DNA of 15,513 nt, from assembly GCA_937124505.1 (NCBI GenBank), contig CAKZKV010000062.1, positions 1 to 15,513 on the forward strand. Direction: 5' to 3'. The DNA is from an uncultured Alphaproteobacteria bacterium. Lineage in GTDB: Bacteria; Pseudomonadota; Alphaproteobacteria; Micavibrionales; Micavibrionaceae. The notes under the pieces are model-generated. The model searched no databases and was not told the DNA's origin. It saw nothing but the letters and a program-made list of their open reading frames with translations. Made by a program: the position numbers and the translations under genes. Numbering within the stretch: position 1 is the stretch's first letter; each line of letters starts with the position of its first letter. Below are positions 4,165 to 15,475 of this stretch, piece by piece.

Positions 4165-5178
4165 TCAGGAAAAGATTTCAGATGTATTTGTGAAATCCTG
4201 CAGGAAAACAGCCGCATCGTCATTCACAAAAACCATTGTTCCTGTAAATGTATCAGCCCCCTGAACAACAGTGACTTCTTCAGTTGTCACAACATCGCTC
4301 GGCTGTGTATTCAGCGTCAGAACATCTTCATCAGCAAAGTCAACGATGTGGTCGAAACCGTCTCCTAACTCGTCAAAGCCGTTGCTGGTTGTGTAGATGA
4401 ATTCGTCAGCACCTGCACCGCCTTGCAGCACGTCACCTTGTGCGAGGATGCGATAAAGATCGTCAACATCATCATAAATCACAATGCCACGGTCTTCACC
4501 ACCTGCCAATACATCATTTCCGCCGCCAGTAAAGATTACATCTTCACCTTTGCCGCCAAAGACCGTGTCTTTTGTCAGAATACCGTCATCCGTTCCATAC
4601 ACATCATCGCCGTCACCGAGATGGGCGACAATTGTTGTCAGGCTGCCATCAACATAATTCAGGATAGCGCCGCCGGACAGATCACCGGAATGAACTGTGA
4701 TAATGTCATCCCCGTCGCCTGTATCAATGCGGTGTTCATTTGACCAGGATGCCTTGTTGGTTGCTGTAGATAGCTCAATACGGTCGTCACCCTCGCCCAA
4801 CAGGATATTACTTCTTTTTCCGTTAAAGACTTTTAATTCGACCGTGTCGGTTACGTTTGAGAAATCAATATCAGCATTCACAAAGTTATCTGCGATGAAC
4901 AGCATTGAATTGCTACCTGATGCATAGGCAGAAATATTCTTAACGGCATTCCATTCTTCAACGCCATAGTAATAAGCTTCATCCAAAGATCCCGTATCAG
5001 AATACATACTGGAAACCAACGGATCTTCTCCACCAACAGCACCTCCGGAAACATCCGTAGATGCATTAGACGAACCGATTACATCTCCGCCAAACTCTGA
5101 CTGAAGAACGACACTCTCAACGACATAACGGTCTGCCTGACCATCATTGCCAAAATTCACTATTACAGTATTGGACAT
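4165..5178 (-). CDS. RTX-type calcium-binding repeat protein, probable type I secretion substrate
   Basis: A 337-residue acidic protein with several nonapeptide-like glycine/aspartate repeats: LGEGDDRIEL (127-136), TGDGDDIITV (153-162), LGDGDDVYG (187-195), FGGKGEDVI (207-215), GGGNDVLAGG (218-227) and LQGGAGADEF (251-260). Such repeats form calcium-loaded beta rolls. The C-terminal part resembles the serralysin-type secretion domain (GADEFIY, then DHIVDFADEDVLTL) and ends AVFLQDFTNTSEIFS. It has no N-terminal signal peptide, as expected for type I secretion. The N-terminal ~110 residues show no enzymatic motif that I recognise, so the role (surface layer, adhesin, other) is unknown. The start was set at the ATG at 5178 because AGGAGAG lies 5 nt upstream; a longer frame from 5256 has no such support. 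No ABC/MFP secretion genes are visible nearby. Confidence 0.85.
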   Translation of the reverse strand: MSNTVIVNFGNDGQADRYVVESVVLQSEFGGDVIGSSNASTDVSGGAVGGEDPLVSSMYSDTGSLDEAYYYGVEEWNAVKNISAYASGSNSMLFIADNFVNADIDFSNVTDTVELKVFNGKRSNILLGEGDDRIELSTATNKASWSNEHRIDTGDGDDIITVHSGDLSGGAILNYVDGSLTTIVAHLGDGDDVYGTDDGILTKDTVFGGKGEDVIFTGGGNDVLAGGEDRGIVIYDDVDDLYRILAQGDVLQGGAGADEFIYTTSNGFDELGDGFDHIVDFADEDVLTLNTQPSDVVTTEEVTVVQGADTFTGTMVFVNDDAAVFLQDFTNTSEIFS

Positions 5179-5183
5179 AATTT

Positions 5184-5190
5184 CTCTCCT
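5184..5190 (-). promoter_or_regulatory. Ribosome-binding site setting the RTX gene start
   Basis: On the minus strand AGGAGAG stands 5 nt before the ATG at 5178. This strong Shine-Dalgarno match decides for the shorter N-terminus (MSNTVIVNFG) over the in-frame extension to 5256. Confidence 0.8.
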
Positions 5191-5379
5191 CATTCCATGT
5201 TTTAAAGCAAATACAAACACATAATCTGCTAAGATGAGATTAGGTGGCTTCCACAATAAAACAAGAGCAAAACTTTGCTTACGTCAATTTATTTGTGGAT
5301 AACAAACATGAACGAGATTTTGATTCTGGAAACCATTCCACCTTATTTTTTATTAACCATATATTGTTAGGATTTTTAC

Positions 5380-7116: not shown

Positions 7117-8430
7117 CTAAAAGATAGACACAATTTCACTCAAAGCAACTTCTCTTTTCTCGCCCGTCTTCCGGTTCTTTATCTCAGCAACATTATTCTT
7201 AAGTCCCTTTGGTCCGATCACGATTTGCCAGGGCAGTCCGATCAGATCCATATCCGCGAATTTCTCCCCCGCCCCGCTGTTGCGATCATCATAAAGAACA
7301 TCTTTCCCGGCGGCCTGAAGCTGCTGGTAAATATCCTTGCATGCTTTATCACATGCCTCATCGCCAACGCGCAGGTTAATCAACCCGACATCAAACGGCG
7401 CGATTTCCTCCGGCCAGATAATCCCGCTCTCATCATGACTGGCTTCGATAATCCCGCCCACCAGACGCGAAACGCCAATGCCGTAAGAGCCTCCATACCA
7501 AGGAACAAGCTCTCCTTTTTCATTCTGGATACGGCTGTTCATGGAATCTGAGTATTTGCTATCATAATAGAAAATATGCCCGATCTCGATCCCACGGGTT
7601 TCCACCAGTTCTTCCGCTGGAATGCTACAAGTTGCCGGGTCATGAATATCTTCTGTGGCCGCATAGATCTCAGTCAGGCCGTCACAATATTTTTGCAGTG
7701 CCTCCGTATCGTCATAAGATACACCGGGCGCGGCCATATCTTTTTCCATCCAGTCCTTATGAGCAAAGACCTTGCTTTCCCCGTTTTTACCGAGCAAGAT
7801 AAATTCATGCGACAGCTTGCCGCCAATCGGCCCGGTTTCCGCCTGCATCGGGATGGCCTTCACACCCATCCGCGCAAAGGTGCGTACATAAGCCAATAAC
7901 ATCTTCTGGTAGGAAATCTGCGCCAGTTCCGGTGTCAGATCAAAAGAATAGGCATCTTTCATCAGGAATTCCCGCCCGCGCATCACACCAAAGCGGGGGC
8001 GTACCTCGTCCCGGAATTTCCACTGGATGTGATAGAGAATTTTCGGCAGTTCCTTATAGGAATAAATATAGGAACGGAAGATGTCCGTAATCATTTCTTC
8101 ATTGGTCGGCCCGTAAAGCATATCGCGATCATGACGATCCTTGATTCGCAACATTTCCTTGCCATAAGCATCTGTACGACCGGACTCCCGCCATAACTCC
8201 TCCGGCTGAATAGTCGGCATCAAAACTTCCAAAGCCCCGGCCTTGTTCTGTTCCTCCCGAACAATGTTTTCAATCTTTTTCAGGACTTTCAGACCTAAAG
8301 GTAACCACGCATAAATCCCGGCGGAAGTTTGTTTCATCATCCCAGCGCGTAGCATGTAACGGTGAGAAACAATCTCCGCTTCTTTCGGGTTTTCTTTCAG
8401 GGTGGGGATAAAATAATCTGATCTTTTCAT
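7117..8430 (-). CDS. proS: Prolyl-tRNA synthetase, short alphaproteobacterial type
   Basis: Charges tRNA-Pro with proline in the cytoplasm. It has 437 residues; this is the short bacterial form that lacks the editing insertion found in the ~570-residue enzymes. Class II motifs are visible: the motif 1 region ([21 protein letters not shown], split at residues 26-46), motif 2 with [17 protein letters not shown] (139-155) followed by LMKDAYSF, and motif 3 [13 protein letters not shown] (314-326). The anticodon-binding domain occupies about 340-437 ([10 protein letters not shown] ... [19 protein letters not shown]). The start is placed at the ATG at 8430 because [22 protein letters not shown] is the family's normal N-terminus; the frame stays open to 8574, but that part overlaps a palindromic repeat. 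The editing-free form suggests reliance on a separate YbaK/ProX deacylase (inference). Confidence 0.96.
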
Positions 8431-8543
8431 ATGTTTCTTCTTCAAAATGTAAGAAGAAACCTTAGAAAATCTTTGGCAACCTGTCCATAAATATATGGCC
8501 GTCATCCCGGAAGCTATGTCGAATTTTGAAAAGCACTTGTTTT

Positions 8544-8627
8544 GTCCTCCTGAGCCGCAGGCGAAGGATATCATGGAATTTTTTAGATCCTTCGCTTTCA
8601 GCGCTCCGCGCTTTCGCTCAGGATGAC
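8544..8627. repeat. 84-nt palindromic repeat element (GTCATCCTGAGC family)
   Basis: Nested inverted repeats: outer arms GTCCTCCTGAGC (8544-8555) and GCTCAGGATGAC (8616-8627), one mismatch; inner arms GCGAAGGAT (8561-8569) and ATCCTTCGC (8587-8595); and a small extra hairpin AGCGC/GCGCT in the right half. The whole can form one long stem. It lies between the small exported-protein gene and proS. It looks like a dispersed palindromic element (GTCATCCTGAGCG...GAAGGATCT type). A further half-site, GTCATCCCGGAAGC, starts near 8503 and could be the remnant of a second copy. Confidence 0.75.
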
Positions 8628-8637
8628 AATTACTACT

Positions 8638-9018
8638 TTATTTTTTCTCCCCGCAGATCACATAGGCGCGCTCTGTCAGATCGTTCCCTCCCTGAAGCAC
8701 CCGTCCATCTTTTGTGACTTCCAGTAATCCGAGAGGCGCCACCAGTTCATCCCGGCCAAACCCCATCAACCCAAACGCCGTTGCCAGATCAACAGACAGG
8801 GGAATTTTGACGATCTCCGGCAGTTGAAATCCCGCTCCCTCATTTAAATCTGCCGGAACAACAGGCTTTCCATGTACATCGACACCGGGTTGATATGTTA
8901 CATCATCCCGCGGGATATGCTTTTCCAGCAAGCGGCACATTTGATAAGAATACGTCACCTCAATCGCCCGGGCCGATAGTGGTAACATGAACAAAAATAA
9001 CAGGATCAATATGCGCAT
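8638..9018 (-). CDS. Small exported protein of unknown function
   Basis: A 126-residue protein starting with a clear signal peptide (MRILILLFLFMLPLSARA, probable cleavage after residue 18), hence likely periplasmic. The mature part has the conserved-looking stretch YQPGVDVHGKPVVPADLN and later KIPLSVDLA, LLEVTKDGRVLQGG and a cysteine near the C-terminus (YVICGEKK) that could pair with the one in YQMCRLL. I do not recognise a named family or an enzymatic motif. It is divergent from mnmA and has no convincing Shine-Dalgarno. The downstream palindromic repeat (8544-8627) may serve as its transcript end. That it is a real gene is supported by the signal peptide and the tidy placement. Confidence 0.7.
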   Translation of the reverse strand: MRILILLFLFMLPLSARAIEVTYSYQMCRLLEKHIPRDDVTYQPGVDVHGKPVVPADLNEGAGFQLPEIVKIPLSVDLATAFGLMGFGRDELVAPLGLLEVTKDGRVLQGGNDLTERAYVICGEKK

Positions 9019-9111: not shown

Positions 9112-10314
9112 ATGAATTCACTCGGCATAGATAAAAAACCGGAAAACACCCGCGTGGTCGTGGCAATGAGCGGCGGCGTGGACAGTTCCGTCACGGCGGC
9201 ATTGCTACATGAAGAAGGTTATCAGGTCGTGGGGATTACACTGCAACTTTATGATCACGGCGCTGCGATTAATAATGCCAAAGCCTGCTGTGCCGGGCAG
9301 GACATATACGATGCCAAGCGCGTGGCAGAAGCCTGCGGATTCCCGCATTACGTCCTGAACTATGAAAGTAATTTTCGTGAAAGCGTGATTGAGGATTTTG
9401 CCGACAGCTATTTGCGCGGGGAAACCCCCATCCCCTGCGTCAAATGCAACCAGACTGTCAAATTCCGTGACCTTTTGCGTGTTGCCCATGATCTGGGCGC
9501 GGATTGTATGGCCACGGGGCACTACATCAAACGGGTGATCAACCCGGATACAGGGATGGCGGAACTACACCGCGCTTATGACGGCGGCAAGGATCAAAGC
9601 TATTTCCTGTTTGCCACAACTCAGGAGCAACTGGACTTCCTGCGCTTCCCACTTGGTGGCTGGAGCAAAGACGTGACCCGCAGACACGCGGAGCGCCTTG
9701 GTCTGATCACGGCCAGCAAGCCGGAGTCACAGGACATCTGTTTTGTGCCGCAGGGCGACTATACCAAAGTCGTCAAAAAAATCCGTCCGGATGCGGACAA
9801 ACACGGCGATATCGTTCATATCGACGGGCGTATTGTTGGCACCCATAACGGCATTATTCATTACACGATCGGGCAACGGAAGGGGCTGGGCATTGGCGGT
9901 GGCGTGAGTGAAAATAACGAACCCCTCTTTGTGGTCAAAATTAATCCTGCAGAAAACCGGGTAATCGTCGGCCCGAAAACGGCACTAGCCAGAGACGTGG
10001 TGTATCTGGATCAATGTAACTGGTTGATTAATGTCTGTCATTTCGAAGGAGCTATTGCGACTGAGAAATCTCCAGAGATTTCTCGCTACGCTCGAAATGA
10101 CAGCATAAAATGTCAGGTCAAGCTCCGCTCTGTTTCCGAGCCCTCCCCGGCCAAACTCTATGTGAATGAAGACGGCACGGCGAAAATTCATCTGGAAAGC
10201 CCCTTATACGGCATCTCCCCCGGACAGGCGGCGGTCTGCTATGACGGTGACCGTGTGCTGGGCGGCGGCTGGATTACAGGCACAGAAAACAAATCTGTGC
10301 CGTTAGTTGCATAA
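9112..10314 (+). CDS. mnmA: tRNA-specific 2-thiouridylase MnmA with in-frame palindromic-element insertion
   Basis: Thiolates uridine 34 of tRNA-Lys, -Glu and -Gln in the cytoplasm, using ATP and sulfur from a relay. The PP-loop SGGVDSS is at residues 20-26. The catalytic cysteines are C109 (PCVKCNQ) and C210 (SQDICFVPQGDY); these are the expected pair. YTIGQRKGLGIGGG (251-264) and SPGQAAVCYDGDRVLGGGWI (369-388) are the conserved central and C-terminal motifs. The 400-residue length is above the usual ~360-390 because residues about 309-331 (CHFEGAIATEKSPEISRYAR plus NDS) are encoded by a palindromic repeat lying between NWLIN and CQVKLRS of the C-terminal beta-barrel. All catalytic elements are intact, so the enzyme is probably active. 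The start ATG has no good Shine-Dalgarno; an ATG at 9096 is out of frame. Confidence 0.95.
   Translation: MNSLGIDKKPENTRVVVAMSGGVDSSVTAALLHEEGYQVVGITLQLYDHGAAINNAKACCAGQDIYDAKRVAEACGFPHYVLNYESNFRESVIEDFADSYLRGETPIPCVKCNQTVKFRDLLRVAHDLGADCMATGHYIKRVINPDTGMAELHRAYDGGKDQSYFLFATTQEQLDFLRFPLGGWSKDVTRRHAERLGLITASKPESQDICFVPQGDYTKVVKKIRPDADKHGDIVHIDGRIVGTHNGIIHYTIGQRKGLGIGGGVSENNEPLFVVKINPAENRVIVGPKTALARDVVYLDQCNWLINVCHFEGAIATEKSPEISRYARNDSIKCQVKLRSVSEPSPAKLYVNEDGTAKIHLESPLYGISPGQAAVCYDGDRVLGGGWITGTENKSVPLVA
10036..10102. repeat. 67-nt palindromic repeat inside mnmA (TGTCATTTCGA family)
   Basis: Outer arms TGTCATTTCGA (10036-10046) and TCGAAATGACA (10092-10102) are perfectly complementary, as are inner arms GAGAAATCTC (10063-10072) and GAGATTTCTC (10075-10084). 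The two intermediate segments are not complementary, so the hairpin has an asymmetric bulge. It reads through in the mnmA frame without a stop. It belongs to a different sequence family from the element at 8544-8627 but has the same nested architecture. Confidence 0.85.
10279..10301 (+). terminator. Weak stem-loop at the mnmA 3' end
   Basis: GGCACAGA (10279-10286) and TCTGTGCC (10294-10301) form a perfect 8-bp stem with a 7-nt loop, inside the last codons of mnmA. No uridine run follows (GTTAGTTGCATAAATTCTT), so termination is doubtful; listed because no other terminator is visible before the next gene. Confidence 0.25.
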
Positions 10315-10411: not shown

Positions 10412-10456
10412 ACATAAACAAATGTATCAAAATACTATTGAATAGAGGGAAGTGTG

Positions 10457-12112
10457 ATGACCAAAACAAAAATGAATTCTGTCGGCTTATTGGCCGGTGC
10501 GACCTTGATGGTCGGAGCGAATACCATATCAGCCGCCACGGTTCTGATTAATAATACACCTCTTCTTTTTGACCGCGTTCCTGTAGGCGTAAATGATACC
10601 TCCTGGATGGTCGGAAACTATAACTATGGTGGGCAATCAGGCTGTATTTTAACAGCACAACGTGCCGAGGCCACCTATTATCAAAACATCAACAGACGCG
10701 GCCCGGAAAGCTTGCAAATCGTCTCTGCCGAAGGCAAGCAAGCCAAAATGCGTGCCGCACGCGGATATGACGAGCAAGGCGCAACCATTGCCTCCGGTTT
10801 GACAGAATTTAGCGGTTCCGCCGAGCCGGCAGGGGACTCCGCTGCTCTGGATGCAGAACGAACAGCACAAATCACCGCACAGATGAGAGATGGACATTCC
10901 GTAACAGTGACGGGAACATCACCTCGCGGGACCATTGTCACAGATACGTATGACACAAACGGATTTGGCAGCGCCTACAACGTTTTTGGCGAATGTCATA
11001 GGGATATCGTCTCTATATTCGCAAACAGTGATACAGATTTTATGCCTCCTGATGAACGTTTACCAGCTCATACACGCATCACCTCTGCTGTAAATCTTCC
11101 AGAAGTTGCAGACTCATTGGGCGCAAGACTTCCCGCAGAAGGGGAACAAATAATCATGGCCCGTTTTGACTTACCAAGTGAAACAACTGAATATAAAGAC
11201 ATCCCCCTATGCGGTGATACAAGTGCAAAAGCTTCTTTTGTGGAGATTCAATATACGTCTAATGGCAACCACACTACACAAGGTTTCATCCCCCCGGACG
11301 GAACGGCTGATCTGAACTGGAATACGGCTTCGACATTACTTGAGGGCGAATCTTTTCCACCTGATGCCGATCAGACGGAACAACTTATTGTTGATGGTGA
11401 AATTCTGAATATTCGTGCGTCAACACAACATGATCATAAGGTAAAATGGCAAACACCAGATGGCGCTGAGAGAGTTTCTGTCTTTACAACATTGCAGGTT
11501 TCTCCCAGCACACAACAAAATCCGGGCGCACCACGCATTCAAAACGGATGCGCCGATGGTGATGAGATCCTCGCCTGTGTCACAATAGGAGATGATTTCG
11601 CATCTGTCAGCGGGCCAGAAGATTGTGCTGAAAAACTAAACAAACAATTTGTATCACCCCCGCTAGGACCTTCTTACATTTCTCCATCTGAGCCAGAGAG
11701 AACCAGACTGTCTGGTTACCATGACCCCCTTACTTCTTCCCCCTATTATAATAATAGAGATACTTTCTATGATTATCTTTTATTCGGCCCTATCTATGAT
11801 GCCTCCTTCCCAATCACCTCCGGCGGGCAGGACGGGAGAGATACCCCCATCTTGCCGCCAGGTTACCCCACCTTGCTGCCAGATTACCCCGACGGGCCGC
11901 CGAGTTATCCTCCTCCCCCCGTCGTCATAACCCCCAACACACCGCCACCAGCTGTCGTGCCGTTACCGGGGTCACTGCTCCTGTTTGCCTCAGCTGTTAT
12001 CCCCCTGACGGTTCTCTTTGCTAGAGGAGCCCTTAACAGACGTGAAGAGGACTTAGAAGCGGAATCATCTCCAAATAATGTCCAGCATTTCTCAGAACCT
12101 GTTTGTGATTAG
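10457..12112 (+). CDS. Secreted protein with proline-rich stretch and VPLPA/PEP-CTERM-like C-terminal anchor
   Basis: A 551-residue exported protein of unknown function. GAGGGA at 10445-10450 is spaced 6 nt from the ATG at 10457, preferred over the GTG directly before it. A signal peptide (about 1-27, ending NTISAA) leads to a long extracytoplasmic region without a domain I recognise; it holds scattered cysteines (QSGCILT, GECHRD, PLCGD, NGCADGDEILAC, EDCAEK). A proline-rich linker (about 465-500; PPGYP, LLPDYP, PPSYPPPP) precedes VPLPG (501-505), a hydrophobic helix (about 506-522) and a basic ARGALNRR. This tripartite end resembles the VPLPA-type PEP-CTERM sorting signal recognised by exosortases. 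Oddly, it is followed by about 22 further residues ending SEPVCD, whereas sorting signals normally end just after the basic residues. A plain single-pass anchor is the alternative. Confidence 0.7.
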   Translation: MTKTKMNSVGLLAGATLMVGANTISAATVLINNTPLLFDRVPVGVNDTSWMVGNYNYGGQSGCILTAQRAEATYYQNINRRGPESLQIVSAEGKQAKMRAARGYDEQGATIASGLTEFSGSAEPAGDSAALDAERTAQITAQMRDGHSVTVTGTSPRGTIVTDTYDTNGFGSAYNVFGECHRDIVSIFANSDTDFMPPDERLPAHTRITSAVNLPEVADSLGARLPAEGEQIIMARFDLPSETTEYKDIPLCGDTSAKASFVEIQYTSNGNHTTQGFIPPDGTADLNWNTASTLLEGESFPPDADQTEQLIVDGEILNIRASTQHDHKVKWQTPDGAERVSVFTTLQVSPSTQQNPGAPRIQNGCADGDEILACVTIGDDFASVSGPEDCAEKLNKQFVSPPLGPSYISPSEPERTRLSGYHDPLTSSPYYNNRDTFYDYLLFGPIYDASFPITSGGQDGRDTPILPPGYPTLLPDYPDGPPSYPPPPVVITPNTPPPAVVPLPGSLLLFASAVIPLTVLFARGALNRREEDLEAESSPNNVQHFSEPVCD

Positions 12113-12516: not shown

Positions 12517-12741
12517 AGACAAAAGGACTTGTTGTATGTAGCGCTCTGCTGCTGATACTGGCCGGATGTTCGGGGACGGAACAAAGCGTCGAAGTAGAAC
12601 ACGCCCCCCCCTTCCCCCCCTCAATATGAGCGCGCGGACATCCCGCCGGACGGGCTTGTTCTTGAGCGTCACAAGGGCCTGCCGCCGCCGGTTGCCTGTA
12701 CGTCCGATTTCTGCCAGAACGAGGAAGGACAGGCGGAATGA
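12513..12741 (+). CDS. Small lipoprotein with reading frame broken at a poly-C tract
   Basis: Starts ATG at 12513 with AAGGA about 10 nt upstream. MKTKGLVVCSALLLILAGCS is a textbook lipoprotein signal, with lipobox LAGC and lipidated Cys19. In the given sequence translation stops after 38 residues at 12627-12629, just past two cytosine runs, C8 (12604-12611) and C7 (12614-12620). In the adjacent frame, coding continues without interruption (PQYERADIPPDGLVLERHKG, then LPPPVACTSDFCQNEEGQAE) to a TGA at 12739-12741, which overlaps the next gene's ATG as ATGA. Removing one C (or adding two) restores a 75-residue lipoprotein. The broken frame may be a phase-variable switch, a fixed mutation or a homopolymer sequencing error. 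No family is recognised; three cysteines would lie in the mature protein. Confidence 0.7.
12604..12620. repeat. Double homopolymeric cytosine tract (C8-TT-C7)
   Basis: Eight C, two T, then seven C inside the lipoprotein coding region, exactly where the two halves of its reading frame are offset by one base. Such tracts are prone to slipped-strand mispairing and are the commonest substrate of phase variation in surface genes. Confidence 0.85.
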
Positions 12742-14294
12742 GACCTCTATTCCGGATATTGCTGGTGTGCCTTCTGGCCGTGCCCGGCGCGGCGCACGCC
12801 GCCTGTTCGAGCCCGTCTGGAAACGCCGGGAAGGTGATCTACGATGCCGACCATTCCATGCTGTCCTACTGCGACGGCACCAACTGGATCGCGATGGGGC
12901 GGCCTGTCAGTGGCGGGCTGCCGACCGGATGCCCGAATATCGGGGATGTTTGCTCGGACGGCACCGTGTATGCGGGGCAGGCGGGCACGGGCGGGCGCAT
13001 GTATGTGCCGCGCTGCGATGCCGGGATGAGCTGGAACGGCTCAAACTGCACGGGGACGCGCTCCCTGCTGCCGTGGAACAACGGAAATACGTCCGGCTAT
13101 GTTGATACGAGTGTTGTTAATGATGCCAGTACGGACGGGGAGAGCTACACAGCGATCCTGATTACGGAGGATTCCGATAGCGGCACAGCGGGCGCCCAGC
13201 CGCACCAGGCTGCTCAGTACTGCGCCGATCTGTCGGTGAACGGGCACAATGATTGGTATCTACCGGCGCAGGACGAACTCAATACGCTCTACACCAACAG
13301 AGCGGTCATCGGGAATTTTGATACGAGCCCTACCTATTACTGGTCGTCCACGGAGTACACAAATGCTAACGCACGAATACAGAGGTTCAGTAACGGCAAT
13401 CAGAGCCAAGATGGGAAGTCCATCATATATTTGGTCCGCTGTGCCCGGACGGATGGCCTCATCGGCCACTGGAAGCTGGACGAGACGAGCGGAACGACCG
13501 CCGTGGACAGTTCCGGTTATGGCAATAACGGGACGCTGGACAGTGATGCCGCGTTTGTCTCAGGCAAAGTCAACAACGCTGTATTGCTGGACAGCGATGA
13601 CGATTCCGTGAATATCCCTAATGAGTCGGATTTCGATTTTGAGCGCACCGATGCTTTCTCCCTTGCGGCATGGTTTTACCGCCTCAGCAACGATGGTACG
13701 GAAGACGATATTATCGAGAAATTTGATGGAGACGGCTATTGGCTATATTATCCAACCGCCTCGGATGACCTGTATTTCGGTATGAATGATAGCGGCTTAG
13801 CCCTGTCGATTTATGCCGAGGACATCATGCCCGGTGAATGGCATCATGTCGTGGCCACCTATGACGGCAGTTCAAATGCGTCGGGCGCGACACTCTATAT
13901 CAACGGCGTCGAGCACAGCACGATTATTGCCGAAGACGACCTGTCAGGCAGTATCCTGAATAACAGCCCGCTGACGATTGGCAATGAGGCCCCGTCTGCC
14001 TATGCTGGATTCAATGGCAAAATCGACGATGTCCGCATCTACAACCACGCCCTGAGCGCTACGGAAGTGGGGGAACTGTATTGCACCTCCACCCCCGGGA
14101 AGGTGATCTACAACGAAGACAGCCACGTGATGCAGTTCTGCTCCGACAAGGGCGTGCATGCCATGGGGCCGCCGGGAGATGGCGGGGCGGGGTGTACCAA
14201 TCCGGCGGGTATTGAAGGGACGATGATCTATAACAATGACCACAATGTCGCACAATATTGCGAGGGAGATACCTGGATCGCGATTGGCAAATAG
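12738..14294 (+). CDS. Exported Lcl_C (DUF1566) and LamG domain surface protein
   Basis: A 518-residue secreted protein with a signal peptide (MRPLFRILLVCLLAVPGAAHA, 1-21). Modules in order: a YCDGTNW repeat (28-54, GKVIYDADHSMLSYCDGTNW); a cysteine-rich module (65-105, CSDGTVYAG ... MYVPRCDAGMSWNG); an Lcl_C/DUF1566 domain (about 106-237) with its hallmarks GHNDWYLPAQDELNTLY and YYWSSTEY; a LamG/concanavalin-like domain (241-449) from LIGHWKLDETSG to GKIDDVRIYNHALS; and two more YCDG-type repeats (453-477 and 490-517, TMIYNNDHNVAQYCEGDTW). Lcl_C and LamG modules are common in adhesins and carbohydrate-binding surface proteins, so an adhesive role is likely but unproven. The ATG overlaps the lipoprotein stop (ATGA), which implies coupling. 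Cysteine-rich, and visibly richer in GC than the gene at 10457-12112. Confidence 0.85.
   Translation: MRPLFRILLVCLLAVPGAAHAACSSPSGNAGKVIYDADHSMLSYCDGTNWIAMGRPVSGGLPTGCPNIGDVCSDGTVYAGQAGTGGRMYVPRCDAGMSWNGSNCTGTRSLLPWNNGNTSGYVDTSVVNDASTDGESYTAILITEDSDSGTAGAQPHQAAQYCADLSVNGHNDWYLPAQDELNTLYTNRAVIGNFDTSPTYYWSSTEYTNANARIQRFSNGNQSQDGKSIIYLVRCARTDGLIGHWKLDETSGTTAVDSSGYGNNGTLDSDAAFVSGKVNNAVLLDSDDDSVNIPNESDFDFERTDAFSLAAWFYRLSNDGTEDDIIEKFDGDGYWLYYPTASDDLYFGMNDSGLALSIYAEDIMPGEWHHVVATYDGSSNASGATLYINGVEHSTIIAEDDLSGSILNNSPLTIGNEAPSAYAGFNGKIDDVRIYNHALSATEVGELYCTSTPGKVIYNEDSHVMQFCSDKGVHAMGPPGDGGAGCTNPAGIEGTMIYNNDHNVAQYCEGDTWIAIGK
12930..13320 (+). repeat. Duplicated Cys-rich + Lcl_C module, copy 1
   Basis: This stretch matches 15077-15461 at DNA and protein level: both encode C..DGTVYAG...MYV.RCD.G..WNG..CTG followed by WNNGN.(S/T)GYVDT, QPHQAA.YC..LS..GHNDWYLP and AIGNF/VIGNF. 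CGGGCACAATGATTGGTAT is identical in both. The two are diverged paralogous modules. Confidence 0.85.
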
Positions 14295-14330
14295 GGACGG
14301 CGGGAATATCGACGGAACGAGTGCAGAAAC

Positions 14331-14338
14331 AGGAAAGG
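14331..14338 (+). promoter_or_regulatory. Ribosome-binding site for the second Lcl_C protein
   Basis: AGGAAAGG lies just before three consecutive in-frame ATGs (14339, 14342, 14345). Only the last two have usable spacing; 14345 (6 nt) is the best. This rejects the longer frame from 14258 that would overlap the preceding gene and lack a signal peptide at its N-terminus. Confidence 0.75.
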
Positions 14339-14344
14339 ATGATG

Positions 14345-15475
14345 ATGAAACGGATTTTGTTAGGAATGGGACTTCTGGTGGTGGGTGTGAGCCTGTCTTC
14401 AATGGCGCTCGCGCAAGCGGAGGGCGGCGCGTGCAGCGGCGACAAGAAAGCCTATAGCGGCGACGGAGCAGCGCATACGGAATTCACCTGTAACGGCTCC
14501 GAATACCGCCGGACGTTCAGCGTGGACAGTACCACGCCCGCAAACGGGTCTTTCATCGGCGTCAACGAGGAAGCGCCCAAGGCCCCGCTGCATATCGGCG
14601 GAGAGGCGATTATCGGAGAAACAACCGGGCTGGGCTGCGATGCCGACCGAAAGGGCGGATTACGCTGGAACGATTCGGAAAGCACCATCGAGATGTGCGA
14701 TGGGACAGAATGGAGGCTGATTATGGCCGAAACATGTGACAACGCCCCGGCCTTTCCGGCGTTTGAGGACCAGACTAATCTGGCGACATCGACACTGGCC
14801 ACCTCCAACATCGTTTATCTGACGGGGATGGACGCGGGATGTTCTGCTTCTGCCGGGGTAGGCGGGGACGGCAGCCCTGAATTCCGCATTTGTTCGGATT
14901 CCTCATGCTCCAGCGTGGATTTGAGCTGGACGGCCTCCAATACGAGCATGGCCCTGGAAGGCAAATACGTGCAACTTCGCGCCACGAGCAGCGCTTCCGT
15001 GGCGACCGCGCATACCGTGACGTTTACCGCTGGAAGCGTGTCAAGCGACTGGGTGATCTCTACCGGCATGTCGGGTTGTGCGCCAGAGGGAACAGTTTGC
15101 GCGGACGGAACGGTCTATGCGGGCCTCTCGGGAGCCGCGACACCGATGTATGTCACGCGTTGTGATTCTGGGCAGACGTGGAACGGGACGAGCTGTACGG
15201 GCTCGCGGCTCTACCTGTCCTGGAATAACGGGAATTCAACCGGCTATGTTGACACTCCGGTCGCTAATAGTGCAGACGGGCAAAGCATGACAACTATCTT
15301 GGCGGCAACTGATGCGGACTCAAGCATTGCCGGCTTTCAACCCCACCAGGCGGCGGTATATTGTGAGAACCTCTCGCTGCACGGGCACAATGATTGGTAT
15401 TTACCCTCTTGGAATGAGCTTAGTACCATTTCTGCAAACCGAGTGGCCATTGGAAATTTTGCTAGGGCGTGTTGA
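14345..15475 (+). pseudogene. Exported tail-fibre-like Lcl_C protein, truncated in the Lcl_C domain
   Basis: 376 residues as read. A signal peptide (MKRILLGMGLLVVGVSLSSM + ALAQA, about 1-25) is followed by a tail-fibre-like segment (APLHIGGEAIIGETTG, 78-93), a YCDG-type repeat (104-126, GLRWNDSESTIEMCDGTEW), an immunoglobulin-like module (about 150-240, EGKYVQLRATSS ... VSSDWVIST) of a kind common in surface and phage-tail proteins, the cysteine-rich module (245-285, CADGTVYAG) and an Lcl_C domain start (about 288-372, GHNDWYLPSWNELSTIS). Similarity to the upstream paralogue is good up to IGNF, after which only ARAC and a stop follow, so the YWSSTEY half of the domain is lost. The disruption coincides with foreign-looking sequence, probably an insertion. 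It starts 50 nt after the preceding gene, so the two are probably co-transcribed. Confidence 0.75.
15077..15461 (+). repeat. Duplicated Cys-rich + Lcl_C module, copy 2 (cut short)
   Basis: Partner of 12930-13320. Alignment holds to GGAAATTTTG at 15452-15461 (GGGAATTTTG in copy 1) and then ends abruptly, which locates the breakpoint to within a few bases. Confidence 0.8.

Follow-up and report, generated by a model that had tools for sequence, protein, structure and literature searches.

A TGTC-tagged palindromic dimer lies in frame within a variable loop of the tRNA-modifying enzyme MnmA in a Micavibrionaceae bacterium

The mnmA gene of an uncultured Micavibrionaceae bacterium carries a 67-nt palindromic element in its reading frame, and we consider it very probable that this element is a REP dimer of the CGTC/TGTC-tagged superfamily, as described in PMC3733652, that inserted in frame and was kept in a tolerant, variable loop of an enzyme that probably still works. 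The gene lies on a 15,513-nt stretch, hereafter the window, which corresponds to the whole of contig C62. The features discussed below are as follows, in window coordinates.

9112..10314, plus strand: mnmA (tRNA 2-thiouridine(34) synthase), 400 amino acids with the insert, NF001138 match
10036..10102, plus strand: 67-nt palindromic element, two TGTC-tagged hairpin units joined as an inverted dimer; encodes MnmA residues 309-330 and contributes one base to codon 331
10036..10072, plus strand: left REP-like unit, TGTC-ATTTC...GAAAT-CTC, read from the sequence; the pattern GTCATTNCGA..GAGNAATC matched 10037-10070 on the plus strand
10073..10074, no strand: 2-nt spacer between the units, the gap between the inner arms
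10075..10102, minus strand: right REP-like unit, inverted, TGTC tag at its outer end; the pattern matched 10077-10101 on the minus strand
10035..10103, no strand: outer perfect arms of 12 nt each (10035-10046 and 10092-10103)
10063..10084, no strand: inner perfect arms of 10 nt each, the tail sides of both units (10063-10072 and 10075-10084)

The outer arms of the element, CTGTCATTTCGA/TCGAAATGACAG, pair at 12 of 12 positions and the inner arms, GAGAAATCTC/GAGATTTCTC, at 10 of 10; these nested arms correspond to the tag sides (outer pair) and tail sides (inner pair) of two inverted hairpin units, with TGTC at both outer ends and CTC after the stem. RNA folding of positions 10030-10108 yields -33.2 kcal/mol (z = -5.94), a value equalled by none of 200 shuffles. 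In order-1 simulations of the window, outer arms of at least 12 nt arose in 9 of 200 sequences, and none of the 200 combined them with a nested inner pair of at least 10 nt, of which the real window holds one case, so that the palindrome is not expected by chance. An Rfam scan of the window returned no family at gathering scores, and the covariance model introduced below scores the mnmA copy at 67.3 bits (E = 4.0e-12), this copy having belonged to its training set. The first-pass annotation had described a 67-nt nested palindrome with two perfect pairs of inverted arms, in frame in mnmA, and arms, fold, simulations and the intact reading frame all bear it out.

The mnmA open reading frame is uninterrupted over its 400 codons, and its product matches the MnmA model NF001138 with 423.9 bits (cut-off 284) in a single stretch that spans the element. 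The latter begins exactly with codon 309, comprises 22 whole codons (309-330) and reaches one base into codon 331; 22 residues are thus specified wholly by the element, in place of the "about 23" estimated earlier. The AlphaFold2 model likewise has the MnmA fold (mean pLDDT 76.9) and places residues 309-324, at pLDDT below 50, between strands 294-304 and 332-337, four further stretches of the protein also falling below 50. Most of the insert is modeled as a low-confidence loop, which is probably disordered and floppy in the C-terminal part of the protein and presumably exposed.

Around mnmA, the window encodes a Proline--tRNA ligase on the opposite strand (7117-8574, minus strand; 709.4 bits), separated from it by a small open reading frame (8638-9018) with no NCBIfam match. 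Three downstream frames (10454-12112, 12738-14294 and 14258-15475) have the look of surface or secreted proteins by eye; the first has no NCBIfam match, and the scores of the second with three models stay well under their cut-offs. A minus-strand frame at 4165-5256 shows a weak likeness to a repeat protein of the calcium-binding kind, with 34.3 bits against a cut-off of 625.

Comparison with relatives shows the segment to be absent from every one examined. A protein search scored 8000 candidates, and the insert is present in 0 of the 120 closest MnmA proteins, which were listed and aligned; the counted alignment columns hold 5-12 residues in 103 of the 120, versus 27 in the window's own protein, with the qualification that the aligner placed some other inserts (for example in P0021, P0024 and P0028) just outside these columns. 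The nearest proteins are 82-83% identical, and matches in named genomes belong to Alphaproteobacteria bacterium metagenomes (80% identity, JAUHWR010000001.1), one of them labeled Micavibrionaceae, and to Micavibrio sp. At the gene level, an MnmA match was found in 127 of the 142 genomes of the order; after exclusion of the own genome and of the partial genes of G071 and G089, loops were read in 124 (56 + 16 + 52), one of which was masked, and the insert occurs in none of the 123 readable mnmA genes. Their loops measure 7-13 residues in 116 and 17-30 in the remaining seven, and the relative of the same genus (G001) has a 7-residue loop versus 29 residues in the own protein. The expectation that residues 309-331 would be missing from relatives thus holds for all listed proteins and all readable genes.

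We infer that the REP dimer, with its tags facing outward, inserted in mnmA after the lineage had split from this same-genus relative. Its persistence would follow from a reading frame that stays open through it and from its position in a variable loop, flanked by two strands in the C-terminal region, and the enzyme, if translated as predicted, would probably work with a disordered, nearly neutral extension of 22 residues that has no selected function. The arms, being perfect, point to a rather recent event, although with the nearest MnmA proteins no closer than noted above, neither the recency nor the exact insertion points are fixed.

The element is repeated in its genome (G000; 2.02 Mb in 357 contigs, 96.6% complete, 3.77% contamination). 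A DNA search returned 22 matches, some of them representing one place on both strands, and the half-unit pattern GTCATTNCGA-N{2,30}-GAGNAATC gave 19 matches against 0 for its reversed control. Covariance model R1, built from 11 aligned full copies, recovered no fewer than 12 full dimers with E < 1e-3, a lower bound since 150 of 912 first-look candidates were scored; 11 of these are the training copies, which the model is bound to match, and the copy on contig C252 is the sole new one. Weaker matches were a fragment at the edge of contig C120 (E = 0.02) and a larger, 132-nt version in three copies (E = 0.129). The 11 measured dimers are 67-81 nt long, with TGTC invariant at one end and the complementary GACA at the other end in 9 of the 11 aligned copies (C312 and C324 differ); the 12 full copies share a head-to-head order with the tags outside, an order that the model imposes on 11 of them, and one further exact unit stands alone on contig C169. 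Copies occur both within and between genes, 3 of the 12 full dimers being in frame in genes. The genome-wide search proposed earlier has therefore found a repeated element; the idea that it may be abundant did not survive, given at least 12 full copies, 19 half-units and a literal right-end 20-mer present at two places at up to 3 mismatches, the mnmA copy included.

The outer stem of the units is kept by paired changes: among 117 distinct half-unit strings the two free outer-stem positions are complementary in 108 (62 C-G, 45 T-A and 1 G-C), compared to a mean of 55.7 and a maximum of 73 in 10,000 shuffles, in a count that ignores relatedness. Each stem begins with ATTTC/GAAAT or ATTCC/GGAAT and continues through a G-A/A-G step into a variable inner part of 7-30 nt, which folds better than its own shuffles in only 53 of 113 strings. 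The G-A/A-G step, a mismatch between outer and inner stem, is built into the search pattern.

No target-site duplication consistent across copies was apparent by eye. Outer inverted repeats, assessed at 16 copies, did not hold up as a general feature: shuffles as good as the real flanks numbered 0 of 200 at C312, C42 and C298, 5 at C152, 6 at the carB copy (C313), 12 at C290a and at least 31 of 200 at the other ten, including the rsmB-like (31) and mnmA (175) copies. Three repeats of about 220-240 nt on C42, C326 and C298 (L342:467-705, L343:51-272 and L344:1443-1680) are 95-96% identical and have a 132-nt TGTC...GACA core flanked by outer inverted ends, which 0 of 200 shuffles equaled at C42 and C298 and 65 of 200 at C326; they are MITE-like, with no obvious gene inside by eye. 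Four dimers (C97:3131-3204, C152:1136-1210, C324:1461-1535 and C252:6016-6086) have common flanks, as if a larger composite had been copied, and a related GTCATTGCGAGGAGC-type element lies just upstream of a ribosomal protein S6-like gene, identified by eye, on contig C250 (L006:1501-1590).

Besides mnmA, the in-frame copies reside in carB, encoding the large subunit of carbamoyl-phosphate synthase, and in an rsmB-like gene. CarB matches NF003671 with 1554.7 bits (cut-off 599) in a single stretch across the insert, and its linker spans 44 residues, versus 21 in 87 of the 120 listed rows (one of them the own protein) and 20 in a protein of the same genus (P0125). The rsmB-like gene, which has a match in 28 of 29 genomes and scores 244.5 bits with NF011494, under the cut-off of 319, carries its copy near the C-terminus, in a loop of 42 residues; G001 has 23 residues there, and the 27 aligned relatives range over 16-35. 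The three in-gene copies measure 67, 67 and 73 nt, all 1 modulo 3, versus one of eight other measured copies, numbers too small to carry weight. In the family's most unit-rich genome (G028, 56 units), 2 of 30 loci examined are in frame in long open reading frames, namely those of uvrA (1594.5 bits) and dnaE (1207.4 bits), both above cut-off. Other spanning frames were judged spurious by eye: four of 77-180 residues (C46:5064, C152, C324 and C46:9767), one of 199 residues on C250 that joins the downstream gene, and one of 112 residues in G028 (L383).

The same protein loops also hold other repeats, a recurrence that looks like the new part of these observations. The MnmA loop of G029 is a different multi-copy palindrome, with 14 matches in that genome at 8 places besides mnmA and 0 matches in the congener G119, and the loop repeat of G063 recurs at 3 other places in its own genome and at none in its congeners G035, G064 and G062. 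The three MnmA inserts show no mutual similarity beyond that of shuffles (353, 283 and 170 of 500 as good), so that three dissimilar repeats occupy one MnmA loop in three lineages. Among the seven relatives with loops longer than 13 residues, these two are the ones tied to repeats; the long loop of G124 folds well (z = -2.75), and the longest perfect arms in G080, G108, G023 and G076 reach 4-5 nt. In four metagenomic MnmA proteins (P0033, P0082, P0016 and P0044) the loop peptides resemble translated REPs, by eye only. In CarB, the linker peptide CHPERSEGS of P0162 corresponds to frame 1 of the repeat on contig C83 of the own genome, and the linkers of P0126, P0127 and P0225 read by eye like other repeats; these four proteins and the own CarB share 72-78% mutual identity and therefore come from different species.

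Such reuse could mean that the peptides help, the insert giving MnmA a selected property such as a contact with tRNA or a partner, and this exaptation would fit both the unrelated multi-copy repeats in the MnmA loops of G029 and G063 and the different repeat-like peptides in the CarB linkers of P0126, P0127, P0162 and P0225, as well as the inclusion of other tRNA-modifying enzymes, the tRNA pseudouridine synthases, among the REP-bearing genes named in PMC3733652. We nevertheless regard it as improbable, for the inserts differ in sequence and are lineage-specific, the mnmA insert is predicted to be of low order in a loop that spans 7-13 residues in nearly all readable relatives (116 of 123), and tolerance at a variable loop accounts more simply for the same data. 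Still less credence can be given to a misjoining of the repeat into mnmA during assembly. The metagenome assembly is indeed fragmented, at 357 contigs and 3.77% contamination, and the right unit, taken by itself, shows 97% identity over 28 nt with copies on contigs C290 and C152; however, the best other whole copy (C166) is 77% identical, so no other copy was transferred entire into mnmA, the reading frame is uninterrupted with both gene halves fitting one MnmA, and in-frame copies occur in three genes. Finally, an ordinary lineage-specific expansion of this naturally variable loop, as the weakly paired 17-30-residue loops of G080, G108, G023 and G076 might suggest, with palindromy arising by chance, is refuted by the at least 11 other full copies elsewhere in the genome and by the absence of nested arms from all 200 simulations, and retains next to no probability.

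The half-unit pattern is present in 40 of the 104 genomes of the bacterial family, the own genome included, with 0 control matches among the rows listed. A search with PF01797 found matches in 34 of the 104, 33 of them over cut-off, and no Y1 transposase in the 96.6% complete own genome. Units occur in 19 of the 34 genomes with Y1 versus 21 of the 70 without it (hand count), yet of the five most unit-rich genomes G028, G116 and the own G000 have no Y1 match, G106 has a short fragment and G062 has one, a pattern that speaks against Y1 as the mover. The absence of Y1 from the own genome agrees with the apparent lack of a dedicated transposase reported in PMC3733652. A broader proposal, which we advance as tentative yet worth entertaining, is that the C-terminal MnmA loop and the CarB linker of Micavibrionaceae might serve as recurrent docking sites where dissimilar palindromic families arrive in frame and independently, and that TGTC dimers might spread without Y1, by a different mobilizing mechanism. 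If such docking sites exist, they would constitute a natural series of loop-peptide experiments, and the three dissimilar repeats in one MnmA loop offer a test case for whether such peptides are only tolerated or also useful.

Among known repeats, bacterial MITEs (ERIC, NEMIS and others) resemble the element in being small, palindromic and non-autonomous and may carry open frames fused to genes; the dimers described here differ in their length of 67-81 nt, the lack of a consistent target duplication by eye and, in the case of mnmA, the lack of outer inverted repeats. GTAG-tagged REPs with RAYT transposases likewise form inverted pairs of hairpin units and also occur in genes, but the tag here is TGTC and the own genome has no Y1_Tnp match, which places the element outside that system. 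Titles among the literature matches listed for the half-unit strings include none on a bacterial repeat, and none among those listed reports this insert or the MnmA and CarB loops as hot spots, in a coverage that leaves most subscription papers outside.

The closest correspondence is with the CGTC-tagged REPs (CGTC-1 to CGTC-4), which, as set out in PMC3733652 (2013), have an unpaired CGTC, TGTC or CCTC tag at one end, TGTC being frequent, an 8-9 bp stem starting A-T, T-A, a loop of 4-5 nt and a three-base unpaired tail that is mostly, not always, CCA; they form mostly head-to-head dimers, are found mostly in Alphaproteobacteria, including Micavibrio aeruginosavorus, and apparently have no dedicated transposase. 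The element shares the TGTC tag, the AT stem start, the head-to-head dimers, the in-gene copies, the alphaproteobacterial host and the interspersed multi-copy occurrence (at least 12 dimers; 19 half-units, control 0), and it differs in its CTC tail and in several longer, highly variable inner stems; by its described features it matches this superfamily. The earlier view that the organism has its own palindromic family therefore gives way, the half-unit being present in 40 of 104 family genomes and the architecture being that of published CGTC/TGTC-tagged REPs. For M. aeruginosavorus, PMC3189940 gives 0.10% repetitive DNA, counting repeats that reach 50 bp and 97% identity, limits under which short units would go unnoticed.

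Palindromes that insert in frame and lengthen conserved proteins by tens of residues are familiar from the Rickettsia palindromic elements (RPEs), described in PMC2229807 and PMC10969869. By description, RPEs belong to another host lineage and measure 105-146 bp (PMC2229807), compared to 67 nt for the few-copy element reported here, and a Rickettsia guanylate kinase with an RPE insert is translated according to the same source. The analogy drawn in the first-pass annotation proves apt, since PMC3733652 equates RPE-4 and RPE-6 with CGTC-4 and CGTC-1, which places them within the CGTC/TGTC superfamily. The same paper describes in-gene copies for REPs generally, GTAG and CGTC alike, often adding 20-30 residues; the proteins so extended include tRNA pseudouridine synthases, UvrA and DnaE. 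Coding REPs are thus already known, and the mnmA insert is a new case of them, from a family that is neither private nor abundant; a phenomenon well known in Rickettsia thereby gains a relative of Micavibrio as host, with three affected genes in one small genome and two in another.
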